From Yoonia vestfoldensis (GTDB lineage: Bacteria; Pseudomonadota; Alphaproteobacteria; Rhodobacterales; Rhodobacteraceae), in assembly GCF_002158905.1 (NCBI RefSeq), contig NZ_CP021431.1, forward strand, positions 62,001 to 126,000: DNA of 64,000 nt. Direction: 5' to 3'. Below, piece after piece: positions 17,054 to 64,000 of the stretch. Positions within the stretch are counted from its first letter, which is position 1, and each line of letters begins with the position of its first letter. Made by a program: the position numbers and the translations under genes. Below the pieces are notes generated by a model that saw only the letters and a program-made list of their open reading frames with translations, had not been told where the DNA came from and searched no databases.

Positions 17054-19880
17054 AGCGGCGCGCCACCAAGGCCTGTGGGTCAGCGGCCGCCGCAAGAGGT
17101 GTTCCGGTGATCTGACCCCATGCCGTTTGCGCCGCCCCATGATCAAAACAAGACGCCGCACGCAGCACGCTGGTGTCCGAGGCGATCAAGGCGCGCTCTG
17201 CCTCTGACAAAGGCGCGTCGCGCAGCCATGTTTGCAACGGGAGCACTGCAAACCCTGCCGGGATCATCTCGGGTGTGACAAAGGCATCAGGGGCAAAGTT
17301 GTAAAACGCTTGCCCCTTGCCTGCGGGGAGCCCGACGAGGAAATTTGCGACCTCATGCACATCTACCATACGAAATGTGAAACCCTCAGGCACCGCGTTC
17401 ATGGCCATGCAAGCTTTCATGATGATCTCGTAGATGTCTTTGGCATTGGGCGCCGCAAGGTCGTAAAGCGACGGCAGGCGCACAATGGCTGCCGGGACAT
17501 TTGACGCTGAAATCTGGGCCTCGGCTTCGATTTTTGCGGCCCCATAGCCAGAACTCCCATCGAAGACTGTTGTTCTGGCCTCTGGGTACGGGCCGCCGGT
17601 ATCAGGGAACACCGCAGACGATGAGGTGAAGCGCAAATCCGCGCCCGCATCGTCGCAAAACTGCAAGATAATGGTGATACCCGTTTGGGACCATGTCTGC
17701 GTATGTCTGCGATCCACCGCAAGATTAACCATCGCCGCACAATGGATCACCGAAGTTACACAGGAGACCAACGCGCCATAGCCGGGTGCATCCAATCCAA
17801 ACCGCGCCTCATCAATAGAACCGGCAATCAGAACCAAGCGATCAGGGTCCACACTTTGGTCTTTTGCAATCCGCAACAACCGATCTGTGGGTGCATTGCG
17901 TTTTTCACGGATCACGCAGTAGATCACTTGATCAGCAGGTAAGGCACGTGCGGCGGCTGCCAGCACGCGACTGCCCAAAAATCCGGTGACTCCCGTTAGT
18001 AAAATCCCCTTGCGGGTAAAGGCGGTGTGGGGCTCTGGCGTGCTTTCAGTCTTAGCAAGAATGTCATGCAAACGTCCCAACGGCACATTCAGCGCAAAGT
18101 CAAAATCCACGCTTCGGCTGTAAATCTCTTCCAGTGCCAACAGCAGGGTTACGGCCATCAATGAATCACCACCTTGGGCGTGAAGGGACAACGCGGGGTC
18201 AAGGTCGCTGACCGAACAGCCCATGACCTTTGCGCATTGCACGATAGTCGGGAGCGCGTCCAATGCGGCGTGGTCATCGATTTGGGCCAACGTGATGTCG
18301 GGCAAGGATTTGAAATCGCATTTGCCCGACACAGCATGGATTGGTATCTCGTCCAGCCGCACCAGATAACTGGGGATGCAATAGGCTGGCAGGTCCTTGC
18401 GCATGACTTTGGATAGGGCGGATGGTATGCGTATTTGGCCTGTGCCCAAGGCCCAATTGCGGTCATTTTGCGCGGCTTGATCCGCATCACTGCTATAATA
18501 AATGATCAGGGCTTTGCCACGGCCTGCGATATCTTTGATCCAAGGCACGGCCTGACCAAATCCGATATAGGCACGCAGCGTTTCCACCAACTCACGCGTC
18601 TGAATACTATGCCCTCGGAGCTTGAGCATATGGGCAATGCGCCCCATGACAAACACGGCTCCTTGCGCATCCACATAGCCCTGATCACCGGTGTCATAGA
18701 GCCGCACGCCGCGACCTTGAAGCGTGAGATTGCGGAATCGCAACGCTGTTTCATCAGGTCTGTTAATGTAGCCCGGCCCCAGCATTTGCGGCCCCTCAAA
18801 ATGCAACAATCCCGGCTGTCCTTCCGGGCAGACTTGATCGCTGTCATCCAGCACAACTGCGCGTAGATGTGGCATGGGCACCCCCACAGACACTGGCCCG
18901 CTGTTGGATTGACGCTGTGTGACATCAGTTATCGCAATGTCATGGGTCTCGCAAATACTATATAGGTTCCAGAGCTTCACATGCGGCAACTTTGCATGCA
19001 CCGCCGCGATCAGATCATCACTGACGACTTCACCGTTGAGGATGATGCGCTGCAACGCTACGCCTGTGATGGCCGTTGCAGGCAAGGCCTGCAGAGCGTT
19101 CTCTAAGGCCGATGGGGTGAACAGCATTTCCGTCACGGCGTGGCGATGCCAAAATTTTACCAAATCAAGCGGGCTCATGAGTTCGTTGAATTGGGCAAAG
19201 CAAATGGTGGCACCTTTTCGCAAAGGGCGGAACATTTCCCAAATCGCAAAGATATAACACCCGACCCGGTCATCAGGGCCATAAGGCGTATAGGCGTCAC
19301 GCCATTCATAGGACAAAAACGCAGAGGTCTGTGTCACAGGAATACACTTTGGTTTCCCAGTCGTGCCAGACGTCGCCACGATATAAATGATGTCATCTGG
19401 TGCTACTTGTGCTCCGACGACGGGACGCGCAGGCTGGTCATTCAGATTTTGAGCAAGCGCCGCGACATCAAAGCAGGCGCAGCTTTGTGGCAATTGCCCT
19501 GTCGCGGGCGGCTCGGCGTGAAAAATCACGCCGATCCCAAGCTCGTCGATGATATTGCGTAACACATCATGTGGCATCGCAGGATCAAGATGTACAAAGG
19601 GGCGTCCAAACACGACACAGGCTGTCACCGCAGCGCCAAAAGCAGCGGACGGTTTCCCGAAGACTGCAACCGGTGCTGCCGTTGGCATATACGTTTGAAG
19701 CCGCTCAATAAAATCTGCCAGCTGACCATACCGTATCGATGTATTCACATCGGTCAGGGCAATGAGATCATGGTGATTTTGGAGGGCCTGTGCGATCTGC
19801 GCGGGAACATTTGAAAGTGCGGTCAATGAGTTTATCACTTTATGGGTTCCTAACGACGCTTTAACTAGGGATTGCGACAC
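17025..19880 (-). CDS. NRPS-like adenylation-carrier-reductase protein
   Basis: A 951-residue A-T-R protein. The adenylation domain has A3 ATSGTTGKPKCIP (169-181), A5-like LYSICETHD, A7 LYDTGD, A8 GRIAHMLKLRG and the A10 lysine in SGKCDF (520). The carrier domain has the phosphopantetheine serine in QGGDSL (573). The reductase domain has the NAD(P) motif TGVTGFLG (629-636) and YGAAK (Tyr779, Lys783). Such proteins load a carboxylic or amino acid and release it as aldehyde or alcohol (Lys2, CAR and similar). There is no condensation domain. Substrate unknown. The annotated start is GTG; a later start near residue 15 is possible. Confidence 0.85.
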   Translation of the reverse strand: MSQSLVKASLGTHKVINSLTALSNVPAQIAQALQNHHDLIALTDVNTSIRYGQLADFIERLQTYMPTAAPVAVFGKPSAAFGAAVTACVVFGRPFVHLDPAMPHDVLRNIIDELGIGVIFHAEPPATGQLPQSCACFDVAALAQNLNDQPARPVVGAQVAPDDIIYIVATSGTTGKPKCIPVTQTSAFLSYEWRDAYTPYGPDDRVGCYIFAIWEMFRPLRKGATICFAQFNELMSPLDLVKFWHRHAVTEMLFTPSALENALQALPATAITGVALQRIILNGEVVSDDLIAAVHAKLPHVKLWNLYSICETHDIAITDVTQRQSNSGPVSVGVPMPHLRAVVLDDSDQVCPEGQPGLLHFEGPQMLGPGYINRPDETALRFRNLTLQGRGVRLYDTGDQGYVDAQGAVFVMGRIAHMLKLRGHSIQTRELVETLRAYIGFGQAVPWIKDIAGRGKALIIYYSSDADQAAQNDRNWALGTGQIRIPSALSKVMRKDLPAYCIPSYLVRLDEIPIHAVSGKCDFKSLPDITLAQIDDHAALDALPTIVQCAKVMGCSVSDLDPALSLHAQGGDSLMAVTLLLALEEIYSRSVDFDFALNVPLGRLHDILAKTESTPEPHTAFTRKGILLTGVTGFLGSRVLAAAARALPADQVIYCVIREKRNAPTDRLLRIAKDQSVDPDRLVLIAGSIDEARFGLDAPGYGALVSCVTSVIHCAAMVNLAVDRRHTQTWSQTGITIILQFCDDAGADLRFTSSSAVFPDTGGPYPEARTTVFDGSSGYGAAKIEAEAQISASNVPAAIVRLPSLYDLAAPNAKDIYEIIMKACMAMNAVPEGFTFRMVDVHEVANFLVGLPAGKGQAFYNFAPDAFVTPEMIPAGFAVLPLQTWLRDAPLSEAERALIASDTSVLRAASCFDHGAAQTAWGQITGTPLAAAADPQALVARRFTSSSQRSP

Positions 19881-20207
19881 TCATCATCGTATCTCTTTCG
19901 AAGATCAAGGCGCAAAACGGCAAGGTCCGCTGTAAAAAAAGAAATAGGCCATTAATGAGGAAGCTGGATGCAAAAGGCATCCACATGGTTGCTGGTCAAC
20001 GACGTAATCTCGCAATGCCAAGTGAGGCTGCAGACATTGAAACTCGTGAAGGGAGTGTTGAGTTTGTTCCGAGGGGCAGTCCCAAAACGTCCTACTTGCA
20101 AAGTGCCCAAATGACAGATTTTCAGTGATCATATCGTTGATACCGACTTGCCTCCGTTATTCTGAAAGTCCGGAAATTCATCGCTAAATGCTAGCGCAAC
20201 GCAAGCG
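19881..20207. other. Intergenic region upstream of the NRPS-like gene
   Basis: About 327 bases between the start of the NRPS-like gene and the end of nadC. It must contain the promoter of the NRPS-like gene. No RNA gene, repeat or operator was recognised. Confidence 0.45.
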
Positions 20208-46403: not shown

Positions 46404-46828
46404 GTAATACAATTCCAGAACTTGATCGGACGGAGGAATGCACTGCACCTGACGACAGGTACGACGAGGTCCCTTGCCGGGACGGGGTTCCTGGAGATGC
46501 CGAAAGCCCGCTAGTTATCGGCTAACGCTGAATACGCGTAAAAGATGGGCACCCAGGACCAGATTTGGACCAGGCATAGAGTGGCAGTCATGAGGCTGAC
46601 TACGGACGGAAGAGCGAAGCCCGTGCAGGGGGTGTCCTTCAGTCCTGACGTGCGGGTGCAGTGAAAAAGAAAAAGTAAGCTTCTGAATTTGTGTCTTAAA
46701 ACTCGGCGAGGAATGAGATCTTCGCCGGGATTTTTGACTTGCCCGAAACCCTTGACAGAGGCCCGCCCCATTACGGAAGCGGGCTTTTTGTCCTTTGGAA
46801 CTCAGACCCTGATCCAAAGGAAACCCCC
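46404..46828. other. Right flank of IS110 and leader of the strawberry-notch gene
   Basis: 425 bases without a gene. Contains the probable right end of the IS110 element and two stem-loops followed by T runs: CGGCGA/TCGCCG at 46704-46727 with TTTTT, and the terminator at 46761-46789. The strawberry-notch gene starts at 46829 behind AAAGGAAA. Confidence 0.5.
46761..46789 (+). terminator. Rho-independent terminator
   Basis: GCCCGC / GCGGGC stem with a 12-base loop followed by TTTTT. It lies 40 bases before the next start codon, so it probably ends transcription arriving from the IS110 side. Confidence 0.6.
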
Positions 46829-49122
46829 ATGACCAAGCCCAATCCGGCAAACCCGGCATTCCCAATCTCCGACACTGATCTCGTCTCTGCCATCGCGCAG
46901 ATCGGCGCGGAGGTCGACCACCAACCCCTGCGCAGCTCAGCGCTCGCGCGCATCATGCGCGAGACGTTTCATGGCAGCGATGCCGGCGGTGCCTGGGACT
47001 GGCGCATGGCATATGACCTGATGCAGGCCGCGGCTGTCCAGGTGCTGCTGCGTGGGGACGGCGCGGCAGGTGACATGGCCGCTGCAAAGCTGCTTGCCTC
47101 ACGGCTCCTGACGGAAACGCGCCGGTCAGAGCAGCAAATCCGGCTCCAGCAGTTTTCCACGCCGCTGGCATTCGCGGCGCTGGTCTTACGGGCGGCGGCG
47201 ATCCGCAAGGGCGAGACCGTGCTGGAACCCTCGGCTGGCACTGGTGCCCTGACCGCTTTCGCTGCCCGGGCCGGTGCCACGCTTGTGCTCAATGAAATCG
47301 ACCCCTTTCGCCAGCGCCTCCTGCGCGCGGTTTTCGGCGGCGAGGTCACAGGCCATGACGGCGAGCATATCGATGATCTGCTGCAGACGCCGGTTCTACC
47401 CGACGTCGTGGTGATGAACCCGCCCTTCGCCTCCTCGGTCGATCGCTCCCGAGACAAGCACATCGCCGCCAAACATCTCATCGCGGCAGCAAAGCGCCTG
47501 GCGCCCGGTGGGCGGCTGGTGGCGATCATGCCGCCGGGATTCACGCCCGAACGCGATGCCGCGCATTGGTCCCGCGCCTGCAGCCTCCTGACGCCGCGAC
47601 TGGCGTTGACGATGCCGGGGCAGGTCTACCGCAAGCTCGGCACCTCTGTCGAAACCCAGCTGATGGTCTTCGACAAGGTGCAGGAGGATGGCGAGATGAT
47701 CCGCGCCATTGTGTGCGATCTGGATGAGGCCCTTCCTTTTGTCGACGCCGTGGCCGCGACCCGGCCCGAGATGCGCCCCGTACAACAGGCAGCGGCGATC
47801 CCTCATGCTCAGCCGACCGTTCCATCATCTGCCCCGCGCAACCGCCGCGCTGCGCCTGTTGCCGCCTCCAAACCCCGGGCCAATGCCGTCCGTCCGCTCA
47901 GCTTCACAAGCTTTGAGACCCCTCGCGACAACACGCCCATCTCGGACATCTATGCGCGCTACCGTCCTCAGCGGATCGAGATTGCGGGTGCGCAGGAACA
48001 CCCCACGCCGCTCGTCGAAAGCATCGCCATGGCCTCGGTTGCCCCGCCCATGCCCTCAAACACGGGCAGTGATGACTTGCGCTTGCCCGCACGGTTGATC
48101 GAGGAGGGACATCTCTCCGAGGCGCAGCTGGAAACCATCATCATGGCGCATGACGCCCATGGGCGCGACCTGCCCGGTCAGTTTACCATCGATGACGACC
48201 AGACCAAGCTGACGCGCGCCGATGATGACCCGGATGCACGTGCCTATCGCCTTGGCTATTTCCTCGGCGACGGCACCGGTTGCGGCAAGGGGCGCGAATG
48301 CGCGGGGCTCATTCTTGTGAACTGGCTTGCCGGGCGCAGGAAGGCGATCTGGGTTTCCAAATCCGCCACGCTCATCGAGGACGCGATCCGCGACTGGACC
48401 GATCTTGGCGGCTCGCCAGCTGACATCCAGCCGCTCTCCAAATGGAAACCGGACCAGCCTGTCCCTATGGGTGACGGTATCATCTTCGTCACCTACGCCA
48501 CGCTGCGGTCCGCGGGCAAATGCGGCACCACGCGCCTGAGCCAGATCCTCGCCTGGATGGGTGAAGACTTTGACGGCGTTCTTGCCTTCGATGAGGCCCA
48601 TGCCATGCAGAACGCGGCCGGGTCCGAGCAGGGCAGGGGGGTCAAACCCTCCCAGCAGGGCCTTGCTGGCCTGCGGCTGCAACTGGCAGCACCCCGCGCC
48701 CGCGTCTTCTACATCTCGGCCACGGGCGCCACGAGCGTGCACAACCTGGCCTATGCCGCGCGGCTGGGGCTCTGGGGGCAGGGACCCGAATACCCCTTCC
48801 CGAGCCGCGAGAGTTTCGTGTCGGCGATGGAAGCCGGCGGCGTTGCCGCCATGGAAGTGGTCGCGCGTGATCTCAAGACGCTCGGCCTCTACACGGCGCG
48901 CGCCCTCAGCTTCGATGGCGTGGAGTATGACGTGCTCGAACACGCACTTACTCCGGCCCAAATCGAGATCTACGACGCCTATGCGGGTGCCTTCCGCACC
49001 ATTCACCACAATCTCGAGGCGGCGCTGACGGCGACCGGTGTCAACGATGCCTCGGGGGAGACCAACGCCTCCGCCGCACGTGCCTCGGCCAAGTCCCGGT
49101 TTGAAAGCACCAAGCAGCGCTT
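46829..49122 (+). pseudogene. Strawberry-notch-type methyltransferase-helicase, part 1 of 3
   Basis: N-terminal 764 codons of a large plasmid/ICE gene. Residues about 125-240 are a DNA-methyltransferase-like domain (EPSAGTGALTAFAARAG, NPPF near 197). A superfamily-2 helicase follows: Walker A-like GDGTGCGKG near 484 and FDEAHAMQNA near 588, then YISATGAT. The frame is cut by an IS3-family element at 49123. With both insertions removed, 46829-49122, 50452-50640 and 56957-58736 join into an exact open frame of about 1420 residues. Start ATG follows AAAGGAAA. Confidence 0.85.
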
Positions 49123-49172
49123 TGAACCGCCCTGGGTTTACCGGAGAGTAAAACACTCAAAGGATGAACCCT

Positions 49173-49505
49173 ATGACAAAGAATCGACATACCCCCGCCT
49201 ATCCTGCCGAACTGCGTGAACGTGGTGTTCGGCTTTTCAGAGAGAACCGTGCTGACTATGCCAGCGACACGGCAGCCTATAAGGCAATTGCGCCGAAGCT
49301 TGGCTGTTCACCGGACAGCCTGCGCGTCTGGTGTCAGCAGGCCGAACGCGATGCCGGGCAGCGGGCTGGGCTGACAATTGCCGAGAAGGATCGGATCAAG
49401 GAACTTGAGCGTGAGGTCCGTGAACTGCGCCAGGCCAACGAGATCCTGAAGAAGGCCAGCGCATATTTCGCAGCGGCGGAGCTCGACCGCCCGTTTCGCA
49501 AATGA
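49173..49505 (+). CDS. IS3-family transposase OrfA, copy 1
   Basis: About 110 residues: a helix-turn-helix (YPAELRERGVRLFRENR, APKLGCSPDSLRVWCQQAER) and a coiled-coil tail (KDRIKELEREVRELRQANEI). Start at 49173 behind AAGGA. Overlaps OrfB by four bases; the full transposase is probably OrfAB. Confidence 0.88.
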   Translation: MTKNRHTPAYPAELRERGVRLFRENRADYASDTAAYKAIAPKLGCSPDSLRVWCQQAERDAGQRAGLTIAEKDRIKELEREVRELRQANEILKKASAYFAAAELDRPFRK

Positions 49506-50407
49506 TCGTGTTCATCGACGATCACCGTCGTGTCCATGGTGTCGAGCCGATCTGCCGGGTTCTGGGGATCGCACCATCGACGTATTACGCCCTCAAGGCC
49601 GTGGAGCGTGATCCGGACCTGGCATCGGATCGGGCTAAGCAGGATCAACTGGACATGGCCGCCATAAAAGAGGCCTTCGATGGCAGTCGGGGCCGATACG
49701 GCGCGCGCAAGGTTTGGCACCAGTTACGCCGCAGCGGGCACGATATCGCTCGCTGCACTGTGGAGCGGCTTATGAAGGCTATGGGATTACAAGGGGTTGT
49801 GCGGGGCAAGAAAGTGACCACGACCAACCCCGATACGGCACAACCTTGCCCGGACGACAAGGTGAACCGGGCTTTCGTGGCCGCTATGCCGAACCAGCTC
49901 TGGGTCAGTGACTTCACCTATGTCTCCAGCTGGCAGGGCATGGTCTATGTGGCCTTCGTCATCGACGTCTTCGCCCGCAAAATCGTCGGCTGGCGCGTCT
50001 CGACCTCGATGACCACCGGTTTCGTGCTCGATGCCTTGAACCAGGCCATCTGCCAGCGCGCCCCGTCCGAGGCGGACAAGCTCATCCACCACAGCGATCG
50101 TGGCAGCCAATACCTGTCGATCCGATACACCGAACGGCTGGCCGAGGCTGGGATTGATACTTCGGTGGGCAGCGTTGGTGACAGCTACGATAACGCCCTG
50201 GCCGAAAGCATCATCGGCCTGTTCAAGACCGAGGTCATCAAGTTTCTCGGTCCATGGAAATCGGTCGGCCAAGTCGAATGGGAAACTCTCAAGTGGGTCG
50301 ACTGGTATAACAAAACGCGCCTGCACAGCGCCATCGGATACATTACACCGAACGAAGCAGAGGAGGCATTCTACGCAAACTTGAACGTTGACGAAAAAGC
50401 AGCGTAA
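49502..50407 (+). CDS. IS3-family transposase OrfB, copy 1
   Basis: A 301-residue DDE integrase: RYGARKVWHQLRR, first Asp in WVSDFTYV, second in HHSDRGSQYL, Glu in DSYDNALAESIIGLFKTEVI, and KTRLHSAIGYITPNEAEE at the end. Intact, so the element can probably move. Confidence 0.93.
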   Translation: MIVFIDDHRRVHGVEPICRVLGIAPSTYYALKAVERDPDLASDRAKQDQLDMAAIKEAFDGSRGRYGARKVWHQLRRSGHDIARCTVERLMKAMGLQGVVRGKKVTTTNPDTAQPCPDDKVNRAFVAAMPNQLWVSDFTYVSSWQGMVYVAFVIDVFARKIVGWRVSTSMTTGFVLDALNQAICQRAPSEADKLIHHSDRGSQYLSIRYTERLAEAGIDTSVGSVGDSYDNALAESIIGLFKTEVIKFLGPWKSVGQVEWETLKWVDWYNKTRLHSAIGYITPNEAEEAFYANLNVDEKAA

Positions 50408-50448
50408 TCATTGAACCACAAACTCTCCGGTAAACCCGGGGCGGTTCA

Positions 50449-50640
50449 CTTCTTCAACCATCTCCTGATGGGCATGAAAGCCCCGACCATCATCCGCGCC
50501 ATCGAGGATGACCTCGCGGCGGGCCACGCTTGCGTCATCCAGGTGGTCTCGACAGGTGAGAGCCTGCTGAAACGCCGGCTTGAAACGATGGACCCCGACG
50601 ACGAGCTCGTCGAGGGTGCCTTGACGCCGCGCGACTATGT
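50449..50640 (+). pseudogene. Strawberry-notch gene, part 2 of 3
   Basis: About 63 codons of the helicase C-terminal half between the two insertions: FNHLLMGMKAPTIIRAIEDD, HACVIQVVSTGESLLKRR and ALTPRDYV. The frame is cut by the RIT element in the DYV-LGYLEQ region; translation would stop ten codons into the element. Confidence 0.85.
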
Positions 50641-50641
50641 C

Positions 50642-50661
50642 TTATCCGGAGTTCCGGATAA
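50642..50661. repeat. Palindrome at the left tip of the RIT element
   Basis: TTATCCGGAGTTCCGGATAA, a nine-base inverted repeat with a two-base centre, found only at the left tip and not at the right. It resembles a paired tyrosine-recombinase binding site. A related sequence (TTATGCGGAGTTCGGGAT) occurs 42 bases inside each terminal repeat. Confidence 0.75.
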
Positions 50662-50833
50662 AACATAATATGCCGCGTCACCGTTATGCGGAGTTCGGGA
50701 TTTCAACCTGTTGTTCTGCTGATTCATTTTCGGGTTTCCACTTTGGATAATCATGATGCCTCTGCTCTCAACCGCAGAAGGACATCCCCCATGAACTCCC
50801 CCTCCAACTCTCCGCTCGGCGGCCGTGCTGACG
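50662..50833. repeat. Left 172-bp terminal inverted repeat of the RIT element
   Basis: Identical base for base to the reverse complement of 56786-56957. Carries the sub-terminal TTATGCGGAGTTCGGGAT motif, a possible -10 (GATAAT, 50746-50751), AGAAGGA ribosome site and the ATG at 50791 with the first 14 codons of ritA (MNSPSNSPLGGRAD). Confidence 0.95.
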
Positions 50834-52317
50834 CCGACGACGTCGCTCTGGTCAGTGCCTATCTCGCAGACAATCCCCGGCTCTCGAAGGGCGCCGTGGG
50901 TGCCGCCCGGCATTTTCTGAAGTGGGCACGCGCCCGGAAGATCCCGACCAGAGACCTCGACGCATCGGCGGTGGATCGGTTCCTTCGCCATCGCTGCCGC
51001 TGCGGCCGCTACAGCCCTGCGCAACTGTGCAAGCCTGCCTACGCCACAGATACACGCAGATTCCTGAGCTATCTCGAAGCCACCGGGGTGGTCTTCATTG
51101 CAAATGAAGTCGCCCGGCTCGGGCAATATCTGGAGGCCCATGCAGAGAAGCTCTGCGCCACCGGATATAGCAAGGTGACGTACTCGACGCAGCTGACTCA
51201 GGCCCGCCATTTCGCGGAATGGGCGCTGCTGATGCGTGTTCCGGCCCACGGAATCGATGAGGCTACCATCGATCATTTCGCACGGCATAATTGCCGTTGT
51301 GGGGAGAAGACCAAACATGGCAAGGACATGCTGGGCTCGCGCCTCAAGAACCGCCGCCGTGGTGCGCGTGCTTTTGTCCGGTTCCTGAGAGATGAGGGTC
51401 TGATCCCGCCTGAAGCGCCTGACTGCGTTACCACCTGCGATCCGCGCCTGACCGAGTTCTCGGAATGGTTGCGCCGCGAACGTGGGGTGACGCACGAGAC
51501 CGTACGGCGCTTCTTGTACGAAGCGAGCCGCTGGCTGGATAGCCTCGGGGCAACCCCGAAAGACTACAACGCGGCGGCAATCCGCTCGATCGTTTTGAAC
51601 CAGGGCGAAGAGCGCTCAAGATCTTCGGTGCGGATGACGGTGACCGTTCTGCGCGCTTTCTTGCGCTTCACGATTGTTCAGAATCAATGCGCCCCGTTGC
51701 TCCTGTATGCTGTGCCATCTGCCGTTTCGCGCAAGCTGTCAACGGTACCACCGACGATCCCTCGAACCAAAATTGAAGAGATAATAGCGTCCTGTGGAAC
51801 CAAAACGCCTGTCGAGATACGGGACCGCGCCATACTCCTTCTGCTCGCGCGGCTGGCTTTGCGCGCCGGTGACATCTGGCAATTGCGGCTGTCAGACATT
51901 GACTGGCGTGCGAGTCGGTTGCGATTGCATGGCAAAGCCAGACGCGAAGTTTTGGTACCAATACCACAGGATGCTGGGGATGCGCTGCTGACCTATATCG
52001 AAGATGTGCGTCCGGTCGTCACAACTGACAGGGTCTTTCTGCGCATTCAGGCGCCATTCACTCCGTTTCGGTCCTCTGCTGAGATCGCCGGGATCGTTTC
52101 CCGTGTCCTTGCCCGGGGTGGCTTCACCGGTCTGCCGACGGGCGCGCACGTGTTTCGCCATTCACTGGCATCGGCCTGGTTGCGCGGCGGCGCGGATCTT
52201 GATCAGATCGGTGTCGCGCTTCGCCACAGCTCGCGTGATACGACCGCGATCTATGCCAAGGTCGATATCGAGATGCTGGCAGGTGTGGCCCAGCCTTGGC
52301 CGGAGTGCGCATCATGA
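50791..52317 (+). CDS. RitA, first tyrosine recombinase of the trio
   Basis: A 508-residue recombinase. The long N-terminal part has two CxC-containing segments (RHRCRCGRYSPAQLC; RHNCRCGEKTKHG) that may bind zinc. The catalytic domain has ALRAGDIWQL (Arg), HGKARREV (Lys), HVFRHSLASAW (HxxR), ALRHSSRDTTAIYAKVD (His and Tyr). The start lies inside the terminal repeat; residues 1-14 are therefore the same as those of the primase-helicase. Its stop overlaps the ritB start. Confidence 0.9.
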   Translation: MNSPSNSPLGGRADADDVALVSAYLADNPRLSKGAVGAARHFLKWARARKIPTRDLDASAVDRFLRHRCRCGRYSPAQLCKPAYATDTRRFLSYLEATGVVFIANEVARLGQYLEAHAEKLCATGYSKVTYSTQLTQARHFAEWALLMRVPAHGIDEATIDHFARHNCRCGEKTKHGKDMLGSRLKNRRRGARAFVRFLRDEGLIPPEAPDCVTTCDPRLTEFSEWLRRERGVTHETVRRFLYEASRWLDSLGATPKDYNAAAIRSIVLNQGEERSRSSVRMTVTVLRAFLRFTIVQNQCAPLLLYAVPSAVSRKLSTVPPTIPRTKIEEIIASCGTKTPVEIRDRAILLLLARLALRAGDIWQLRLSDIDWRASRLRLHGKARREVLVPIPQDAGDALLTYIEDVRPVVTTDRVFLRIQAPFTPFRSSAEIAGIVSRVLARGGFTGLPTGAHVFRHSLASAWLRGGADLDQIGVALRHSSRDTTAIYAKVDIEMLAGVAQPWPECAS

Positions 52318-53225
52318 TGCATTCCCATGTCGATCGCTTCGTTCAACTGAACCGCGCCCTTGGAAAGAAGTTTGCCGCGCAAGAGACGTCCTTGCGCTCT
52401 TTCGCGGATTTCGCTGCAGACCGATCAGCCAGCCACGTGACAACTACCCTGATATTGGAATGGGCTGGTGGCGCCTCGACGCCAGGTGCCGTGCAAATCC
52501 GGGTCGATCAAGCCCGGGCGTTAGCCGTATTCCTGCATGCGGAAGATGCGCATCACGAGATACCGCCGTTGAATCTGCTGGGCCGTTCACGACGGCGGCG
52601 GCCCGCCCCGTATATCATGACGCAGGGCCAGATCAGTCGGATCATGCGGGAAGCGCTTCTGGTGCCGGGCCTGACATCAATCAGCCCGCTGACTTACCAC
52701 AATCTTATCGGTTTGCTTGCATCGACAGGTTTGCGGATTTCGGAGGCTTTGTCCCTCCGGTGCGACGACCTGACCGACGACGGTCTCATGATCCGGCATG
52801 GCAAGTTCGGCAAGAGCCGCCTCGTGCCGATACATGCTTCGACCCGCGCCGCGCTTGACCGCTATCTCGAAGCCCGAGGCGTCGTGCGCAATCCCGGCGA
52901 TGATCTTTTCGTACTCGGCCATGGCCGTGCCCCGACGGCGACCAGGGTCCACGTGGTCTTCGTCCGGATCGTCCGCAAGCTCGGATATCGCACTCCGACT
53001 GGTCCCGGACCCCGGCTGCACGATCTGCGCCATACATTCGCGGTGCGATCTCTGGAAGCCTGCGGGAACGATCCGCAGGCGGTCATGCGGCACATGAAGG
53101 CCCTGAGCACGTATCTCGGCCATGTCGATATCGCCAACACCTATTGGTACCTTGAGGCCACGCCAGTGCTGCTGGAGATGATCGCCTCGACCGCCGAAGA
53201 GACCTGGATCGGAGGTGCAGCATGA
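52314..53225 (+). CDS. RitB, second tyrosine recombinase of the trio
   Basis: A 303-residue recombinase with a short core-binding domain and the catalytic set STGLRISEALSLR (Arg), HGKFGKSRLVPI (Lys), HDLRHTFAVRSLEA (HxxR), YLGHVDIANTYWYLEA (His, Tyr). ATG at 52314 overlaps the ritA stop; the stop overlaps the ritC ATG by four bases. Such overlapping trios act together in RIT and Tn554-like elements. Confidence 0.9.
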   Translation: MMHSHVDRFVQLNRALGKKFAAQETSLRSFADFAADRSASHVTTTLILEWAGGASTPGAVQIRVDQARALAVFLHAEDAHHEIPPLNLLGRSRRRRPAPYIMTQGQISRIMREALLVPGLTSISPLTYHNLIGLLASTGLRISEALSLRCDDLTDDGLMIRHGKFGKSRLVPIHASTRAALDRYLEARGVVRNPGDDLFVLGHGRAPTATRVHVVFVRIVRKLGYRTPTGPGPRLHDLRHTFAVRSLEACGNDPQAVMRHMKALSTYLGHVDIANTYWYLEATPVLLEMIASTAEETWIGGAA

Positions 53226-54226
53226 CCCCGCTCGCTCCCGATCTTTCGGCCTTCATGCAAACCCATCTTCCGGGCGAGTGCGGTGCAAGCCGACATACCA
53301 TCGCAGCCTATGCCCACGCGTTCACCCTCTTGCTGCGGTTTGCCGCTGGACGGCTCAAGCGCTCCCCTTCGGAACTCGCAATCGAAGACCTCGATGTTCA
53401 GATGATCAGGGCGTTTCTTGAACACATCGAGGTAGGGCGCGCCAATTCCGTCCGGTCCCGCAACGCGCGGCTGGCGGCGATCAAATCGTTCTTCCGTTTC
53501 GTCGAACATCGCCACCCGGCCTGTCTCGAGCAGGCGCTGATGATCCGAGCCCTGCCCGTCAAGCGCACGGATACAAGGCTCATCGACTACCTGACCCGGG
53601 AAGAACTCCAGGCCCTGCTTGCCGCACCGAACCGCCATACGCTTGGGGGACTGCGTGACCGGGCGATGCTGCACCTGGCCTATGCTGCGGGCTTGAGGGC
53701 GTCCGAGCTGCTCGCAGTGCGAATGGGCGATTTTCCTGAAGGCTCGTTTTCCAGCGTGCGGATTCTTGGCAAGGGTCGGCGGGAGCGGATTCTGCCGCTC
53801 TGGAAAGAGACCCAGGCCGCCATTCGCGCGTGGCTGGCTGTCCGGCCAGGCGATGCGGGGCCGGAACTATTCCTGAACCGTGATGGTCGCCAGATGACAC
53901 GGGACGGGTTCGCCTACAGGCTCCGGCAGCATGTGGTGACAGCTGAACGCTCGGCGCCGTCGATCGCCGCAAAGCACGTCACCCCGCATGTGCTACGACA
54001 CAGCTGTGCGATGCATACACTTCAGGCAACCGGCGATGTCCGCAAGGTCGCGCTCTGGCTCGGTCATGCCAGCATCCAGACAACGGAGATGTATCTGCGC
54101 GCAGACCCGACCGAGAAGCTCGCGCTCTTGGATGCCCATCACGCACCGTTGATCAAACCGGGCAAGTTCCGGGAACCCTCGGACAAGCTGATGCAGATAT
54201 TGGCGGCGGCCACGCAGCGTTCCTGA
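53222..54226 (+). CDS. RitC, third tyrosine recombinase of the trio
   Basis: A 334-residue recombinase, XerD-like throughout: AAGLRASELLAVRMGDF (Arg), LGKGRRERILPL (Lys), HVLRHSCAMHTLQATG (HxxR) and WLGHASIQTTEMYLRADP (His, Tyr). Ends 40 bases from the convergent primase-helicase stop. All catalytic residues are present in all three proteins of the trio. Confidence 0.9.
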   Translation: MTPLAPDLSAFMQTHLPGECGASRHTIAAYAHAFTLLLRFAAGRLKRSPSELAIEDLDVQMIRAFLEHIEVGRANSVRSRNARLAAIKSFFRFVEHRHPACLEQALMIRALPVKRTDTRLIDYLTREELQALLAAPNRHTLGGLRDRAMLHLAYAAGLRASELLAVRMGDFPEGSFSSVRILGKGRRERILPLWKETQAAIRAWLAVRPGDAGPELFLNRDGRQMTRDGFAYRLRQHVVTAERSAPSIAAKHVTPHVLRHSCAMHTLQATGDVRKVALWLGHASIQTTEMYLRADPTEKLALLDAHHAPLIKPGKFREPSDKLMQILAAATQRS

Positions 54227-54259
54227 CCGGACGCGTAACAACTGGCGTCCCGCGTCCGG
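54227..54259. terminator. Stem-loop between convergent ritC and primase-helicase genes
   Basis: CCGGACGCG / CGCGTCCGG, a perfect nine-base stem with a 15-base loop just after both stop codons. It has no T run, so may be a bidirectional structural terminator or an RNA-stabilising hairpin. Confidence 0.5.
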
Positions 54260-54266
54260 CGGGGCG

Positions 54267-56828
54267 CTATTCCATCACATAGCCGAGCGCCCGATAGCCT
54301 GTTCGTCGCTTGGTCGCCATTCTGGACAGGACCGGAACCGAACTGTCGACATAGTCGACCACCAGGACGTCTTTCTTTCCGTCATGTTGCCGATGCAACC
54401 TGCCGACATATTGCGCCAGCGTGCCTTTCCAGGCGATCGGCATGGTCAGGAACAGGGTGTCGAGCCGCGCATCATCGAAGCCCTCACCGATGTAGCGCCC
54501 TGTCGCGAGGATCAGCCGTTCCTCATCGTCATCGACAGTCAGCCCCGCATGCGCTGCCTTCCGGTCCTTTGCGGACATGCCGCCGCGGAGCACGATAATG
54601 TTTTTCGCAAATCGGGAGAACCGGTCCTGAAGATACTGGAGGTGATCCTTCCGTTCGGTCAGCACGATCGGCGAGCGTTTGGCCTCCAGTGATTTCAGCA
54701 CATCGTCGAAGATCAGATCGTTTCGAGCAGGGTCCTCCGCTAACGCGGCATAAATTGCAGGTATGGATGGGCGCTCCGCCATGGCGAGGGGCTCCGGCAA
54801 ACGGAATCTCGTGTGACGTTCACGCGCCCGATGGTGAATGCCGCTTTCGGCGGCCTGCGATTTGGCGCTCACCTGATGGCGCACGGGGCCGCATTGCATG
54901 AAGATGATCGGATGATGTCCGTCTTTTCGGACGACGGTCGCCGACAACCCGGTGACGTAGCGCGCCTTCGATCTGCGGGCGACCAGTTCAAAGCTTGACG
55001 CAGACAGATGATGGCATTCATCGACGATAAGGTGTCCGTAGTCGGCAACAATGTCGTCTACTTCGCCTTTGCGGACCAGGCTCTGGATCAGCGCCACGTC
55101 GATCACACCGGTAGGTTTGCGTTTGCCGCCGCCGATGGTGCCGATCAGCTTCGGGTCGATCTGCAGAAAGGACTTCAGCCGCTCGACCCATTGGTTTAGC
55201 AGTTCCCGGCGGTGAACCAGCACCAGTGTATTGCGTGCACGATGTGCGATCAGCGCCGCGGCCACGACCGTCTTGCCGAATGCGGTCGTGGCGGCAAGCA
55301 CACCGGTATCATGTTCGGCCAGGGCGTCAAACGCGCGCGTTTGCGGCGGGCGAAGTTCGCCACGGAAGCGGACCGTCTCCGGCAAGCGGGTTCCGTCTGC
55401 ACGTAAATCGTCCAGGTCGGCTGTCGCACCGTGATCGGACAGGAACCCGATCGCTTCGTCGAAGCAGCCGCGCGGCAGGGCGACGTGTCGGGGATGTAGT
55501 TCGGCACAGGACACAATTCGCGGCTTGCCGAATGTCGGCAGCCGCATCGCCTGGGCGCGATAGAATTCGGGGTTCTGGAACGCGGCCAGCCTGACCAGTT
55601 GGGCAATCATGGCCGAAGGCAGCTCTGACCGGTCGAGATAGATCTGGTCTGCGACTGTCACCTTGATGGTTTGCGGGATGGGCACATCCAGACGTCGTGG
55701 CGTGCTGTGGCGTGACGGAGACATCTTCCAGGGCTCATTCGCCTGTTCGTCATCCACCGGCATGCGCACGCCCAACACCCGCCCGGAAAGCTCCGCCGTT
55801 TCGACGAGGTCACTCACCGCTGACGCCGACATTCTCGGCAGGGAAGACAAAAAGGCCCACTGATCGTCAAATGGCCGCATTCCCGCGTCCACAAAGACGC
55901 TGTTGCCAGCCTTGCGCGCAGTGTTCTGAAGCGGCAGTGCGATCAGATTGCCGAAACCGCCGAGCGGCATGATATCCTGGTTTGGAAACAGCCGGTCATA
56001 GGAGGCAAAGCCAATCTCCGGCCGCCTTTCCATCGTTTCCGTGATCAAAACCGATCCGAGCTGGCGCGCCAGACGGGCGGACACGGGTTCTGAGAAGAAG
56101 ATCCAGACATGACCGCCGTTGCCCGATCTCGACCGCTCCAGCGCTGCAGGGACTCCCTTTGCTCGGCAGGTTTCCAGCAGCGCACTGGCGTCTTCCGCCC
56201 AGGATGCCTTGTCAAAATCCGCAGCAAGAAACCAGCATGTATCACCCTGGAGCAGCGGGTAGACGCCCGCGACAAAATCCCCGCTGCGTCCATCATCACC
56301 GCGCAGGTGTTTTTCCATGATGCACTCATTCGGAGGGATGAATTTCTGATGTGGGCACTCGCCGCATTTGACCTTCGGCTTGCCGCAAATGCCTTTCACC
56401 CATTCGTTGGCACAAGCAGGCGAATATCCTGAGCGTTCGGTCTTCCTGTTTTCCCACCGCACAGGAAACACGTCAGGCCGACCGGCGAATAGACTTCGGA
56501 ACAGATCGACCTTTTCATGCGACGGCGAACTGTTCGTCACCGGAGCGTCCTCGAAGGAAGGCTGTTTCACGGCTGGCGCGTGCTCAGCGGCGAGGCGAAC
56601 CTCGAGGGACGCCATCTCGCGCTGAAGCTGCTGCCGTTCGGCATCCAGATTGGCTAGACGCGCTCGAACCCGCGCCATTTCCGCCTCGATGTTGCTCTTT
56701 TCTGCCACCGCGGTTTCCACCCAATCCTTTCCGTCCCGTCCAGCATAAAGCGGGAAAGCGGCTCGCGTAAGCAGGCTTTCTCGATCGTCAGCACGGCCGC
56801 CGAGCGGAGAGTTGGAGGGGGAGTTCAT
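54267..56828 (-). CDS. Archaeo-eukaryotic primase plus SF2 helicase (TOTE-like)
   Basis: An 853-residue protein starting within the right terminal repeat (first 14 residues as RitA). Order: coiled coil 44-84; a Cys cluster (Cys139, 148, 155, 158); an archaeo-eukaryotic primase domain about 180-305 with the metal motif ADFDK (Asp204, 206), SGNGGHVW (His240) and FPNQD; and a superfamily-2 helicase with ATTAFGKT (513-520), DECHH (604-608) and GLSAT, then a second RecA lobe with GRYIGEGFDDARLDTLF and YVGRLHRQ. Resembles the core of TOTE conflict systems. May prime or repair transposition intermediates or attack foreign DNA; role unproven. Confidence 0.87.
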   Translation of the reverse strand: MNSPSNSPLGGRADDRESLLTRAAFPLYAGRDGKDWVETAVAEKSNIEAEMARVRARLANLDAERQQLQREMASLEVRLAAEHAPAVKQPSFEDAPVTNSSPSHEKVDLFRSLFAGRPDVFPVRWENRKTERSGYSPACANEWVKGICGKPKVKCGECPHQKFIPPNECIMEKHLRGDDGRSGDFVAGVYPLLQGDTCWFLAADFDKASWAEDASALLETCRAKGVPAALERSRSGNGGHVWIFFSEPVSARLARQLGSVLITETMERRPEIGFASYDRLFPNQDIMPLGGFGNLIALPLQNTARKAGNSVFVDAGMRPFDDQWAFLSSLPRMSASAVSDLVETAELSGRVLGVRMPVDDEQANEPWKMSPSRHSTPRRLDVPIPQTIKVTVADQIYLDRSELPSAMIAQLVRLAAFQNPEFYRAQAMRLPTFGKPRIVSCAELHPRHVALPRGCFDEAIGFLSDHGATADLDDLRADGTRLPETVRFRGELRPPQTRAFDALAEHDTGVLAATTAFGKTVVAAALIAHRARNTLVLVHRRELLNQWVERLKSFLQIDPKLIGTIGGGKRKPTGVIDVALIQSLVRKGEVDDIVADYGHLIVDECHHLSASSFELVARRSKARYVTGLSATVVRKDGHHPIIFMQCGPVRHQVSAKSQAAESGIHHRARERHTRFRLPEPLAMAERPSIPAIYAALAEDPARNDLIFDDVLKSLEAKRSPIVLTERKDHLQYLQDRFSRFAKNIIVLRGGMSAKDRKAAHAGLTVDDDEERLILATGRYIGEGFDDARLDTLFLTMPIAWKGTLAQYVGRLHRQHDGKKDVLVVDYVDSSVPVLSRMATKRRTGYRALGYVME

Positions 56829-56957
56829 GGGGGATGTCCTTCTGCGGTTGAGAGCAGAGGCATCATGATTATCCAAAGTGGAAACCCGAAAATGAATCAG
56901 CAGAACAACAGGTTGAAATCCCGAACTCCGCATAACGGTGACGCGGCATATTATGTT
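56786..56957. repeat. Right 172-bp terminal inverted repeat of the RIT element
   Basis: Exact reverse complement of 50662-50833. Supplies the ribosome site and the first 14 codons of the primase-helicase on the minus strand. On the plus strand it opens a frame at ATG 56865 that runs into part 3 of the strawberry-notch gene. Confidence 0.95.
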
Positions 56958-58736
56958 CTGGGCTACCTCGAACAGGCATTCCCGATCCACGCGCAAAAGC
57001 TCGTGGAGATCGACGGCAACATGGTCGCGGAACCCTTGCGGGATGAGGCGGGCGCGCTCGTTGTCTCGCGCGAGGCGCTCGCTCTGCGGGATGCGGCCAT
57101 GATGGAATTGATGGCGCTGGCCCCGATCCCCTCGGCGCTCGATCAGATCCTATGGGCCTTTGGTGAAGAGGCTGTCTCCGAAGTCACGGGCCGGTCCATC
57201 CGGCCCCTCAAGGCCGAGGATGGTCATCTCTTCATCGAAAAGCGCGCCGCCAGCAGCAATTCCTCCGAAACCCAAGCCTTCATGGACGCCGAAAAGGATA
57301 TCCTGATCTTCTCCGATGCGGGCGGCACGGGCCGGTCCTATCACGCGGCGCAAACGGCGAAGAACCAGAAACGGCGGCGGCACTACCTGCTGGAGCCCGG
57401 CTGGCGCGCGGATGCGGCCATCCAGGGGCTGGGACGCACGCATCGCTCTGCCCAGGTCAGCGCGCCGTTCTTCCGGGTCTGCACCTCCGATGTGCATGGC
57501 GAGAAACGCTTCACCTCAACTATAGCCAAGCGCCTCGACCAGCTGGGGGCCTTGACCAAGGGTCAGCGCGAGACCGGCTCGCAGGGCATGTTCCGCGAGG
57601 AGGACAATCTCGAAAGCCCGATCGCACGGGCCGCGCTGCGTGGGTATTTCGCCGATCTTGCCGCCGGGCGCGCCGAGGCGATGAGCTACGAGAGCTTCAC
57701 CGACTGGACGGCCCTGCGGCTGATCGACAAGGACGGGGTGCTCCTTGAGGAGCTTCCCCCGATCCAGCGGTTTCTGAATCGGGTGCTTGCCCTTCCCATC
57801 CACATGCAGAACGCGCTCTTTGCCGAGTTCATGAGGCGGATTGCCGATCAGTCTGAGCGGGCGCGCGCGGCGGGCACGCTCGATCTCGGCGTGGAAACCC
57901 TGCGCGGCGAAAAGATCGAACAGGTCTCCACAGAGGATCTCTGGACCTGCCCGAAATCCGGCGCCGTGACGCGGATCATCGGACTTGAGGTGACGGACCC
58001 GGTCCACGTCCTTGGGGCAGAAGAGGCCATGTCGCGCAATCCCGACAAGCTGCCGATGGTCAATCGCGCTTCAGGTCGGGCGGCGCTCCTCTCGGCACGG
58101 CCCATGCAGATGTATGACGAGGACATCGTCACGCTGATGCGGAAGGCGGTGCGGCCAAGCGGCTCGAGCTACCTCGAGGAGACACGGTTCGAGGCCTCGG
58201 CTTGGGAAGAGATCGGCAAGCCTGAGTTCGCACGGCTTTGGGATGCGGAGGCTGCGTCCCTGCCAAAAACCACCACGACCAAGCTCTACCTGTTGACTGG
58301 GCTGCTGCTGCCGATCTGGAAGGATATCCCGACCACGAATGAGCGCATCTACCGTGTGACGCCAGACGGAGCGATAGCGATGATCGGGCGCACGTTGAGC
58401 GAAGAAGGGGCGGCCGCGCTCCGCGCCCGCTTCCTCGTCTGCAATCCGCAAACGCCGCAAGAGATGCTGACTGCCGCCTTCGGCACCTCCGCGCCGGTCG
58501 ATCTGGGCCGGGGTCTGACGCTGACCCGTCGCCGGGTCGCAGGCGAGATGCGCCTCGAGTTCTCTGGTGCGGATCGGGGCATGATTGAGGGTCTCAAGGC
58601 CCTCGGCTGTTTCACCGAGATCATCGCTTTCCAGCTACGGGTGTTCCTGCCGCATGGGGACGGGATCGACACGGGAAGCATTCTGGCCCGGATCGTGGGG
58701 CAGAGGCCTGCCATCACGGCAGACCAACCCGCCTGA
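56958..58736 (+). pseudogene. Strawberry-notch gene, part 3 of 3
   Basis: About 592 codons of the C-terminal helicase half: GYLEQAFPIHAQKL at the cut, VEIDGNMVAEPL, LIFSDAGGTGRSYHAA, QGLGRTHRSAQVSAP (a helicase motif VI-like QxxGRxxR) and later domains. The frame is open from ATG 56865 inside the RIT repeat, which follows AGAGG, so a 623-residue chimeric C-terminal protein could be made. The complete gene is widespread on alphaproteobacterial plasmids and ICEs. Confidence 0.85.
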
Positions 58737-62716: not shown

Positions 62717-63060
62717 ATGGAGTTTTCAACGGACTACGAGACCCACGCCGAGAGGATCGTGGACCTCTTCGGGGCGACCTTCACGGCGTCAGAGGGCGCG
62801 GAAGAAGGCGCGCTGATCGGCGGCCTAGTGCGTCGCCTGATCGCAGAGACACCCGGTGACGACCTTCGTGTGTTCACCGCATGGGAAGACCGCGCGCTCC
62901 TCGGCGGCATCCTCTTCTCACGTCTGGCTTACGAAGGCGATCCGCGCACGGTCTTCATGATGGCACCCGTGGCGGTGGCCACCGAGCATCAAGGCAAGGG
63001 CCTTGGGCAGCAGTTAATTTCCCACGGCCTCGACGTGCTCAAGCAGGAGGGTGTGGATAT
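62717..63060 (+). pseudogene. GNAT acetyltransferase, cut by IS
   Basis: N-terminal 114 residues of a GNAT enzyme, ATG 62717 after a GGAGAG-type site. It contains the acetyl-CoA motif VAVATEHQGKGLGQQLI but the C-terminal half is lost to the IS element at 63061. The frame runs on into the IS for about 35 codons without homology. Confidence 0.75.
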
Positions 63061-64000
63061 TGAACCGCCCCGGGTTTACCGGAGAGTTTGTGGTTCAATG
63101 ATTACGCTGCTTTTTCGTCAACGTTCAAGTTTGCGTAGAATGCCTCCTCTGCTTCGTTCGGTGTAATGTATCCGATGGCGCTGTGCAGGCGCGTTTTGTT
63201 ATACCAGTCGACCCACTTGAGAGTTTCCCATTCGACTTGGCCGACCGATTTCCATGGACCGAGAAACTTGATGACCTCGGTCTTGAACAGGCCGATGATG
63301 CTTTCGGCCAGGGCGTTATCGTAGCTGTCACCAACGCTGCCCACCGAAGTATCAATCCCAGCCTCGGCCAGCCGTTCGGTGTATCGGATCGACAGGTATT
63401 GGCTGCCACGATCGCTGTGGTGGATGAGCTTGTCCGCCTCGGACGGGGCGCGCTGGCAGATGGCCTGGTTCAAGGCATCGAGCACGAAACCGGTGGTCAT
63501 CGAGGTCGAGACGCGCCAGCCGACGATTTTGCGGGCGAAGACGTCGATGACGAAGGCCACATAGACCATGCCCTGCCAGCTGGAGACATAGGTGAAGTCA
63601 CTGACCCAGAGCTGGTTCGGCATAGCGGCCACGAAAGCCCGGTTCACCTTGTCGTCCGGGCAAGGTTGTGCCGTATCGGGGTTGGTCGTGGTCACTTTCT
63701 TGCCCCGCACAACCCCTTGTAATCCCATAGCCTTCATAAGCCGCTCCACAGTGCAGCGAGCGATATCGTGCCCGCTGCGGCGTAACTGGTGCCAAACCTT
63801 GCGCGCGCCGTATCGGCCCCGACTGCCATCGAAGGCCTCTTTTATGGCGGCCATGTCCAGTTGATCCTGCTTAGCCCGATCCGATGCCAGGTCCGGATCA
63901 CGCTCCACGGCCTTGAGGGCGTAATACGTCGATGGTGCGATCCCCAGAACCCGGCAGATCGGCTCGACACCATGGACACGACGGTGATCGTCGATGAACA
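63061..64000 (-). mobile_element. IS3-family insertion sequence, copy 2 (partial in window)
   Basis: Starts with the same end (TGAACCGCCCCGGGTTTACC) as copy 1 read from its right side, and continues unchanged to the window edge, so it is an inverted copy. The flanking bases TAT (63058-63060) are the likely target duplication; the other end is outside the window. Confidence 0.92.
63102..64000 (-). CDS. IS3-family transposase OrfB, copy 2, start outside window
   Basis: Runs to the window edge; by comparison with copy 1 the start codon lies seven bases beyond position 64000. The DDE motifs WVSDFTYV, HHSDRGSQYL and DSYDNALAESI are present. Appears to encode the same protein as copy 1. Confidence 0.9.
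   Translation of the reverse strand, partial: FIDDHRRVHGVEPICRVLGIAPSTYYALKAVERDPDLASDRAKQDQLDMAAIKEAFDGSRGRYGARKVWHQLRRSGHDIARCTVERLMKAMGLQGVVRGKKVTTTNPDTAQPCPDDKVNRAFVAAMPNQLWVSDFTYVSSWQGMVYVAFVIDVFARKIVGWRVSTSMTTGFVLDALNQAICQRAPSEADKLIHHSDRGSQYLSIRYTERLAEAGIDTSVGSVGDSYDNALAESIIGLFKTEVIKFLGPWKSVGQVEWETLKWVDWYNKTRLHSAIGYITPNEAEEAFYANLNVDEKAA

Follow-up and report, generated by a model that had tools for sequence, protein, structure and literature searches.

A Recombinase-in-Trio element of Yoonia vestfoldensis with a primase-helicase cargo and paired copies in opposite orientation

The 64,000-nucleotide stretch of Yoonia vestfoldensis DNA analysed here (contig NZ_CP021431.1, positions 62,001 to 126,000; hereafter the window, whose coordinates are used unless a locus is named) contains a real member of the Recombinase-in-Trio (RIT) family of mobile elements, with a primase-helicase gene as its cargo. 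The element lies at 50642–56957, with its left edge at about 50641. Comparison of its copies and relatives indicates that it is probably a site-specific transposon whose excised circle would have a symmetric joint with two cores, of which the core that flips the element seems to be preferred. The unit of three recombinases and one primase-helicase is shown by sequence comparison to move as a whole, and in either orientation, into a fixed site in the strawberry-notch (Sbno) gene.

A second copy (L106; loci are cited by L numbers) is found on a 111-kb contig of the same genome. The two are 100.000% identical over 6295 bp and lie in opposite orientation, L106 being placed in a diverged Sbno gene whose flanks are reversed and 79.4% identical, in an alignment that still includes the inverted repeat (IR). 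The initial annotation, made from the window alone, had proposed an RIT-type element and a primase-helicase passenger moving as one unit. This proposal is borne out by a search for other genomes with the same four genes between matched IRs, which yielded 19 such units in 14 genomes (all 16 of the 16 four-gene loci tested, together with L111, L117 and L106). The genomes are those of Y. vestfoldensis itself, Roseinatronobacter, Pseudodonghicola, Brucella daejeonensis, a Rhodobacteraceae metagenome-assembled genome (MAG), an Aurantimonas MAG, Sulfitobacter, Dinoroseobacter shibae, two Paracoccus, Pukyongiella, Sagittula, Gemmobacter and Rhizobium. Two loci stand outside this count because their contigs stop short of both element ends: L010, which has all four genes, and L001, which is cut in RitB. 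Among the 19, RitA is interrupted by an IS3 element in L085, the helicase frame is broken in L033, and the contigs of L009 and L033 end inside an IR. A sample of the host's own family contained the helicase in 10 of 394 genomes, four of them with two equal copies; some of these 10 are probably also among the 14.

Element anatomy and target site

The three recombinase genes occupy the plus strand and overlap by 4 bp at each boundary: a RitA-like gene (508 aa, 50791–52317; longest open reading frame (ORF) from 50686), a RitB-like gene (303 aa, 52314–53225), joined to RitA through an ATGA overlap, and a RitC-like gene (334 aa, 53222–54226). Convergent to them on the minus strand is an 813-aa gene (54267–56708, GTG start at 56708) that combines a PrimPol of the archaeo-eukaryotic primase (AEP) type with an XPB-type SF2 helicase. 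The left IR (172 bp, 50662–50833, plus strand) includes the RitA start codon and its first 14 codons, and the right IR (172 bp, 56786–56957, minus strand) is its perfect reverse complement (172 nt, 100% complementary). ORFs, Pfam and the comparison of the repeats all agree with the initial description of overlapping recombinases, a convergent AEP-helicase and perfect 172-bp IRs. At 6.3 kb, the element is above the approximately 3.5 kb of a plain RIT because the helicase gene is present; the plain relatives L115 and L163 have 3711 bp in common.

Pfam Phage_integrase is matched by all three recombinases (E values of 3e-22, 2e-18 and 3e-31), and the R..R..Y catalytic residues can be recognised by eye in each; all 10 sequences of the RitA alignment share R358, K382, R456, H479 and Y488. 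The RitA N-terminus consists of a repeated module, HFxxWA...H.CRCG. An extra N-terminal repeat (50791–51500) is common to L111 and L115 and missing from the shorter RitA of L113 and L116; it could perhaps form a third core-binding domain, giving the protein three modules. A purine-rich stretch in the left IR could be a ribosome-binding site. A sigma-70-like promoter was looked for in the IRs and none was found, and the left-end fold (z −2.1) was not used as evidence.

The interrupted host is a plasmid-type Sbno gene, of which the 5' part (46739–49122, plus strand) encodes a methyltransferase-like part and the strawberry-notch helicase, a fragment (50449–50641, plus strand) separates an IS3-type element from the RIT element, and the 3' part (56958–58736, plus strand) resumes at the right end. 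At the insertion point, all four uninterrupted Sbno genes that were fetched, from 492 matching plasmid records, have the sequence GACTATGT-TCTGGG, which confirms the precise insertion first annotated. At the left junction the order is GACTATGTC, then TTATCCGGAGTTCCGGATAA, then the IR, and the core TATGTC (50636–50641, plus strand) corresponds to TATGTT in the empty sites. At the right junction the IR ends in CATATTATGTT, and its core TATGTT (56952–56957, plus strand) abuts host CTGGGC with no palindrome between. The 20-bp palindrome (50642–50661, no strand) is found on the host-5' side only and is absent from all four empty sites read; no host sequence was therefore lost, and the palindrome is extra. 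The palindrome belongs to the element, and the left boundary originally drawn at 50641 was correct.

The host gene had already been broken by the IS3-type element (49123–50448), which has 27-bp IRs. On the 111-kb contig, another full copy (L106 15414–16739) borders the second Sbno gene at its start, and a third copy (63060–64000) runs past the window end. In Sulfitobacter (L081), a nucleotidyltransferase gene and a CBASS phospholipase gene (18555–19977) lie about 5 kb from the element copy.

One-sided palindrome and opposite orientation of paired copies

Exactly one palindrome, of the form TTAT(12)ATAA, accompanies the terminal IRs in 19 of 19 tabulated elements when up to four mismatches are allowed, and it is carried at one end only. 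All 18 elements inserted in Sbno have this palindrome on the host-5' side, the end concerned being that of RitA in 11 and the other in seven. Compared over their outer 145 bp, the ends of a single element match each other at 97.9–100% in nine of 10 elements (89.0% in L088), and left ends compared between elements match at a median of 86.0% (45 pairs, range 69.7–95.9). Ends are closer within an element than between elements and are therefore either kept alike or freshly made alike. The ends of the Sagittula element L088 (6164–6344 and 12274–12453) differ, with 85.6% identity over 181 bp; its helicase end resembles the Pukyongiella element, and L088 may be a hybrid of two elements.

Near-identical pairs of elements (99.98–100%) are oppositely oriented relative to the host gene in all eight genomes counted. 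Identity is 100% in Y. vestfoldensis, Pukyongiella, Gemmobacter, Rhizorhabdus wittichii DC-6 and Sphingobium amiense, and 99.98% in D. shibae and Sagittula; in the eighth genome, G1124, it is 100% over 2622 bp, with one end seen per copy and the host side assigned by eye. The pairs from Rhizorhabdus, S. amiense and G1124 are plain RITs and were added after the first five genomes had given the idea. Two genomes are outside this test: Bradyrhizobium barranii, which was not counted because the left edge of its unit is in duplicated DNA and because, of its three copies, two have flanks and orientation in common (the third is reversed to one flank), and G1143, whose copies are not identical. Where the centre of the palindrome is asymmetric, it is reverse-complemented between the paired copies in four of four cases (Y. 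vestfoldensis, Gemmobacter, Rhizorhabdus and S. amiense), in keeping with a palindrome that turns together with its element; D. shibae, Pukyongiella and Sagittula have an identical perfect palindrome in both copies, so that turning would be invisible. In Sagittula and S. amiense, the same Sbno gene contains, a few hundred bases away, a second RIT unit whose recombinases are of another type (L088 1997–5830 and L090 12626–16459; L164 1–2084 and L165 8201–10284). These second units are 100% identical across the paired plasmids over the part available, L164 having only part of the unit, and are reversed relative to the host gene.

A single pathway could produce both the one-sided palindrome and the reversal of paired copies. 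The recombinases would excise the element as a circle whose joint reads IR-core-palindrome-core-IR, and such a joint would be symmetric, with two equivalent and opposite cores; for D. shibae it is predicted to read CATATTAYGT-N-TTATCC(8)GGATAA-N-ACRTAATATG. Integration via one core would restore the old orientation, and integration via the other would flip the element; either would put the palindrome on the host-5' side, matching what is observed. The core left unused in excision seems to be preferred, which would result in a flip. Opinion is evenly balanced on a stricter version, in which every transposition flips the element, with excision at one core and integration at the other, the IRs stay alike through their alternating roles, and the helicase has been loaded more than once as cargo.

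Several points weigh against a preference for flipping. The predicted circle joint, searched for as one exact pattern, was found in none of the 394 genomes and in none of the viral contigs, an absence that is weak evidence because assemblies seldom hold circles. The preference is drawn from eight genomes, of which five gave the idea, three were tested later, and one of these, G1124, is one-ended; the opposite orientation could instead result from selection or from recombination between plasmids. It is conceivable, with a probability well short of that of a preferred core, that the orientation has no mechanistic basis: a symmetric junction would be used at random, and eight of eight would have arisen by selection or chance. 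Both directions do occur among the 18 tabulated Sbno insertions, the chance of eight in eight is 1 in 256, and the sample was unplanned. The two further RIT units of Sagittula and S. amiense (partial in L164) are, however, likewise reversed between plasmids, and no selective reason is clearly evident.

That homologous recombination between plasmids or Sbno genes, and not transposition, spread the copies is very improbable. The Sbno genes are homologous, and the homology of IR and element would permit such recombination, but it would preserve orientation and bring the flanks along. In Y. vestfoldensis the identity instead stops at the ends of the element, with reversed flanks at approximately 79%, and the same break in identity is seen in six further pairs.

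Origin, spread and role of the primase-helicase

The helicase looks like an added gene, since it is missing from sister RITs that share the target. In these sister-lineage elements, L112 and L115, the IRs measure 98 and 93 bp, and the palindrome type and the Sbno target are unchanged; the copy in L112 may be broken, because its annotation shows only the last part of RitA. With repeats of 93–98 bp in plain sisters, a long, near-perfect IR is, by sequence comparison, not peculiar to helicase carriers. Later addition of the helicase to a plain RIT, which the initial annotation had named as an outcome against its reading, is thus favoured by the sister RITs, but in the Rhodobacterales clade of the RitC tree all 15 of 15 rows have the gene. 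Among RitC loci from the host's own family, the helicase is adjacent in six of six loci with at least 84% identity, in addition to the two copies of Y. vestfoldensis, and is missing from three of three with at most 63% identity, one of which (L128) has only 95 bp beyond RitC. In a sphingomonad-centred sample, the helicase was near none of 15 RitC loci within the available DNA. On the RitC tree, the helicase label needs three changes, at least two of them forced, with gains and losses not distinguished, and the carriers are the Rhodobacterales clade, L111, and L013 with L017. The tree suggests some two or three acquisitions of the helicase by RIT lineages.

The gene also occurs in other settings. 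Bradyrhizobium ARR65 (L018) has a solo helicase between 89-bp IRs with an RIT-type palindrome, and L015 probably has a solo helicase between IRs of 62–65 bp. In Sinorhizobium meliloti the helicase is directly downstream of TniQ, and in Agrobacterium of TniB/TniQ (helicase beside Tni genes in L135 1–5966 and L133 2275–5912); a DDE-type transposon is the probable carrier of the Tni-linked gene. In Bradyrhizobium barranii, three copies (L160 4976–12248, L161 and L162) share at least 7273 bp, and the helicase and a distant RIT trio are co-directional in them; these units adjoin duplicated DUF736-type DNA. The IRs flanking the helicase of L014 and the inner pair of L017 were considered as element ends and rejected, as they look like copies of a DUF736-type gene. 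A gene of this type is annotated beside the helicase in L136.

Domain and structure comparisons agree on the nature of the protein. Pfam places PF22548 (AEP-TOTE) at residues 161–396 of P0004 (E = 1.4e-96; 323 bits versus a cut-off of 27) and the start of a ResIII/DEAD helicase domain at residue 547. An alignment of 14 sequences conserves DFD, SRSGxGxH (one x being K or N, and E in one row), AFGKT and DECHH stretches, which we take to be PrimPol and helicase motifs. The AlphaFold2 model (mean pLDDT 75.7, pTM 0.52) resembles XPB-family helicases and the PrimPol domain of CRISPR-associated PrimPol (CAPP; Foldseek TM 0.82 by target length, 24% identity), and a sequence profile supports the CAPP match (E = 3.3e-18). 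Phage relatives are partial: none of 1336 matching phage records covers 80% of the protein, and the matches listed (15 rows) all fall within residues 377–905.

In the window, the helicase frame extends to an ATG (56826–56828) inside the right IR, the mirror of the RitA start. In six of 21 related loci (the window, L106, L081, L082, L117 and L009), an open frame links this ATG to the helicase; as a start shared by both outer genes the ATG was rejected, being out of the helicase frame in the other 15. The IR ATG was kept for RitA and dropped for the helicase because the relatives mostly have the helicase out of frame. By homology to RefSeq calls, the helicase start is likely the GTG at 56706–56708.

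Median dN/dS values (54–55 pairs, 11 elements) are 0.167 for RitA, 0.122 for RitB, 0.082 for RitC and 0.077 for the helicase, so that purifying selection on the helicase is, by this estimate, as strong as that on RitC. In eight loci with no trio in the available DNA, the helicase has a dN/dS of 0.077–0.132 against its nearest RIT-borne relative. One of these eight, L006, has only an IR. In L004, L007, L043 and L084, and likewise in L082, a RitC piece lies beside the helicase, whose frame has no break in the conserved part. The helicase is thus kept where its own trio cannot move it, which favours a cargo with its own benefit over a transposition factor. Most likely, the helicase is cargo under its own selection. 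Some of the trio-less cases are weak, L011 lying at a contig edge and L008 and L020 having no RIT remnant, and no dominant partner gene emerged from the neighbours: of 212 ORFs around L011–L080, 123 were chosen, longest first, and the 90 scanned gave AbiEii four times, Fic three times, TniQ three times and Schlafen AlbA_2 twice. From the sequence comparisons, the protein likely primes or fills gaps on unwound DNA to the benefit of the plasmid or host, and the setting is likely to be tolerance of DNA damage, the establishment of plasmids, or a conflict with plasmids or phages.

It is unlikely that the primase-helicase instead belongs to the transposition machine, where it would prime second-strand synthesis or unwind a single-stranded or strand-biased intermediate. 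Consistent with such a role, and possibly contrary to that of a cargo, the gene is carried throughout the Rhodobacterales clade; its median dN/dS is also the lowest among the four genes, its PrimPol and helicase motifs are intact, and the copy-out pathway proposed for SE elements (PMC10214605) would need this activity. However, the plain sister RITs have the same target and palindrome without the helicase, plain RITs likewise form 100% identical pairs, the helicase frame is open where the trio is reduced to a stub, and the gene is found on other vehicles. The PrimPol of the Thermus element ICETh2 is reported to have no effect on circle copy number (PMC9751324). The initial suggestion that the element primes its own replication or repair during excision finds no support, in view of the identical pairs of plain RITs and of helicase genes that are open and constrained without a trio or lie away from RIT recombinases.

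A defence (conflict) gene spread between plasmids by the RIT element is a possible but tentative reading. The Pfam domain is named for the TOTE conflict system, PADLOC matches its CRISPR-associated PrimPol model at 1.7e-88, AbiEii, Fic and AlbA_2 genes occur among the scanned neighbours, and the helicase persists without the trio. AbiEii and Fic genes are, however, common in accessory DNA anyway. There is no fixed partner gene, the Pfam scan found no nuclease or toxin domain in the protein, and the TOTE label derives from the Pfam name, no TOTE-system paper having been found in the open-licence literature. With CAPP (PDB 7nqd) and Pfam AEP-TOTE the protein has the PrimPol catalytic domain in common; it differs from CAPP in its fusion to an XPB-type helicase and in that no CRISPR genes are annotated alongside it in the plasmid regions fetched.

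Relation to known elements and significance

RITs are described as approximately 3.5 kb long, with three adjacent tyrosine recombinase genes overlapping by 4–8 bp and ends formed by an IR (28-9 bp) with an overlapping palindrome (PMC3414803); IR lengths of 28–34 bp are reported for RITs. RitA has two sequential core-binding domains and RitC an extra C-terminal helix (PMC8138268). The present element resembles RITs in its RitA-RitB-RitC order, 4-bp overlaps, IRs with a palindrome and identical copies per genome, and differs from them in its length and fourth gene, in its IR of 172 bp, in a RitA of 508 aa versus at most 410, and in having a defined target site with the palindrome on one side only. 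D. shibae is listed with two identical RIT copies (PMC3414803), which are probably L083 and L089; strain DFL 12 has its copies on pDSHI01 and pDSHI03. For RITs, PMC10214605 gives movement, empty site and target specificity as untested, and its authors knew of no laboratory transposition of an RIT.

Tn554, SE elements and GInts also combine several tyrosine recombinases with site-specific insertion and accessory genes. SEs consist of intA, CDS2, intB and CDS4 and leave a 6-bp footprint (PMC10214605), and GInts of ginABCD (PMC5385486), whereas the present element has a large primase-helicase as its fourth gene and takes a 20-bp palindrome along. Family models recognise only the convergent primase-helicase between the IRs and no small helper of the GinD, Srap or TnpC kind, in a scan that included no structure-based search. 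ICETh2 likewise has a PrimPol on a tyrosine-recombinase element; the portion of PMC9751324 available names a single integrase (Int2) in place of a trio and mentions no helicase fusion. Among open-licence papers, we found none that describes an RIT element with a primase-helicase.

What goes furthest beyond the initial annotation, and is new here, is the palindrome that travels at one side of the element and the opposite orientation of paired copies, which hint at an unusual way of jumping; parts of the end anatomy may have been published before. The PrimPol-helicase, for its part, uses at least two kinds of vehicle in its spread between plasmids. In this set of elements the target and the ends are defined exactly, a palindrome travels along, and plain and loaded versions both occur, with naturally doubled copies in the cultured Dinoroseobacter shibae; with exact site, exact ends and doubled copies in a cultured host, the three-recombinase mechanism is therefore directly testable.

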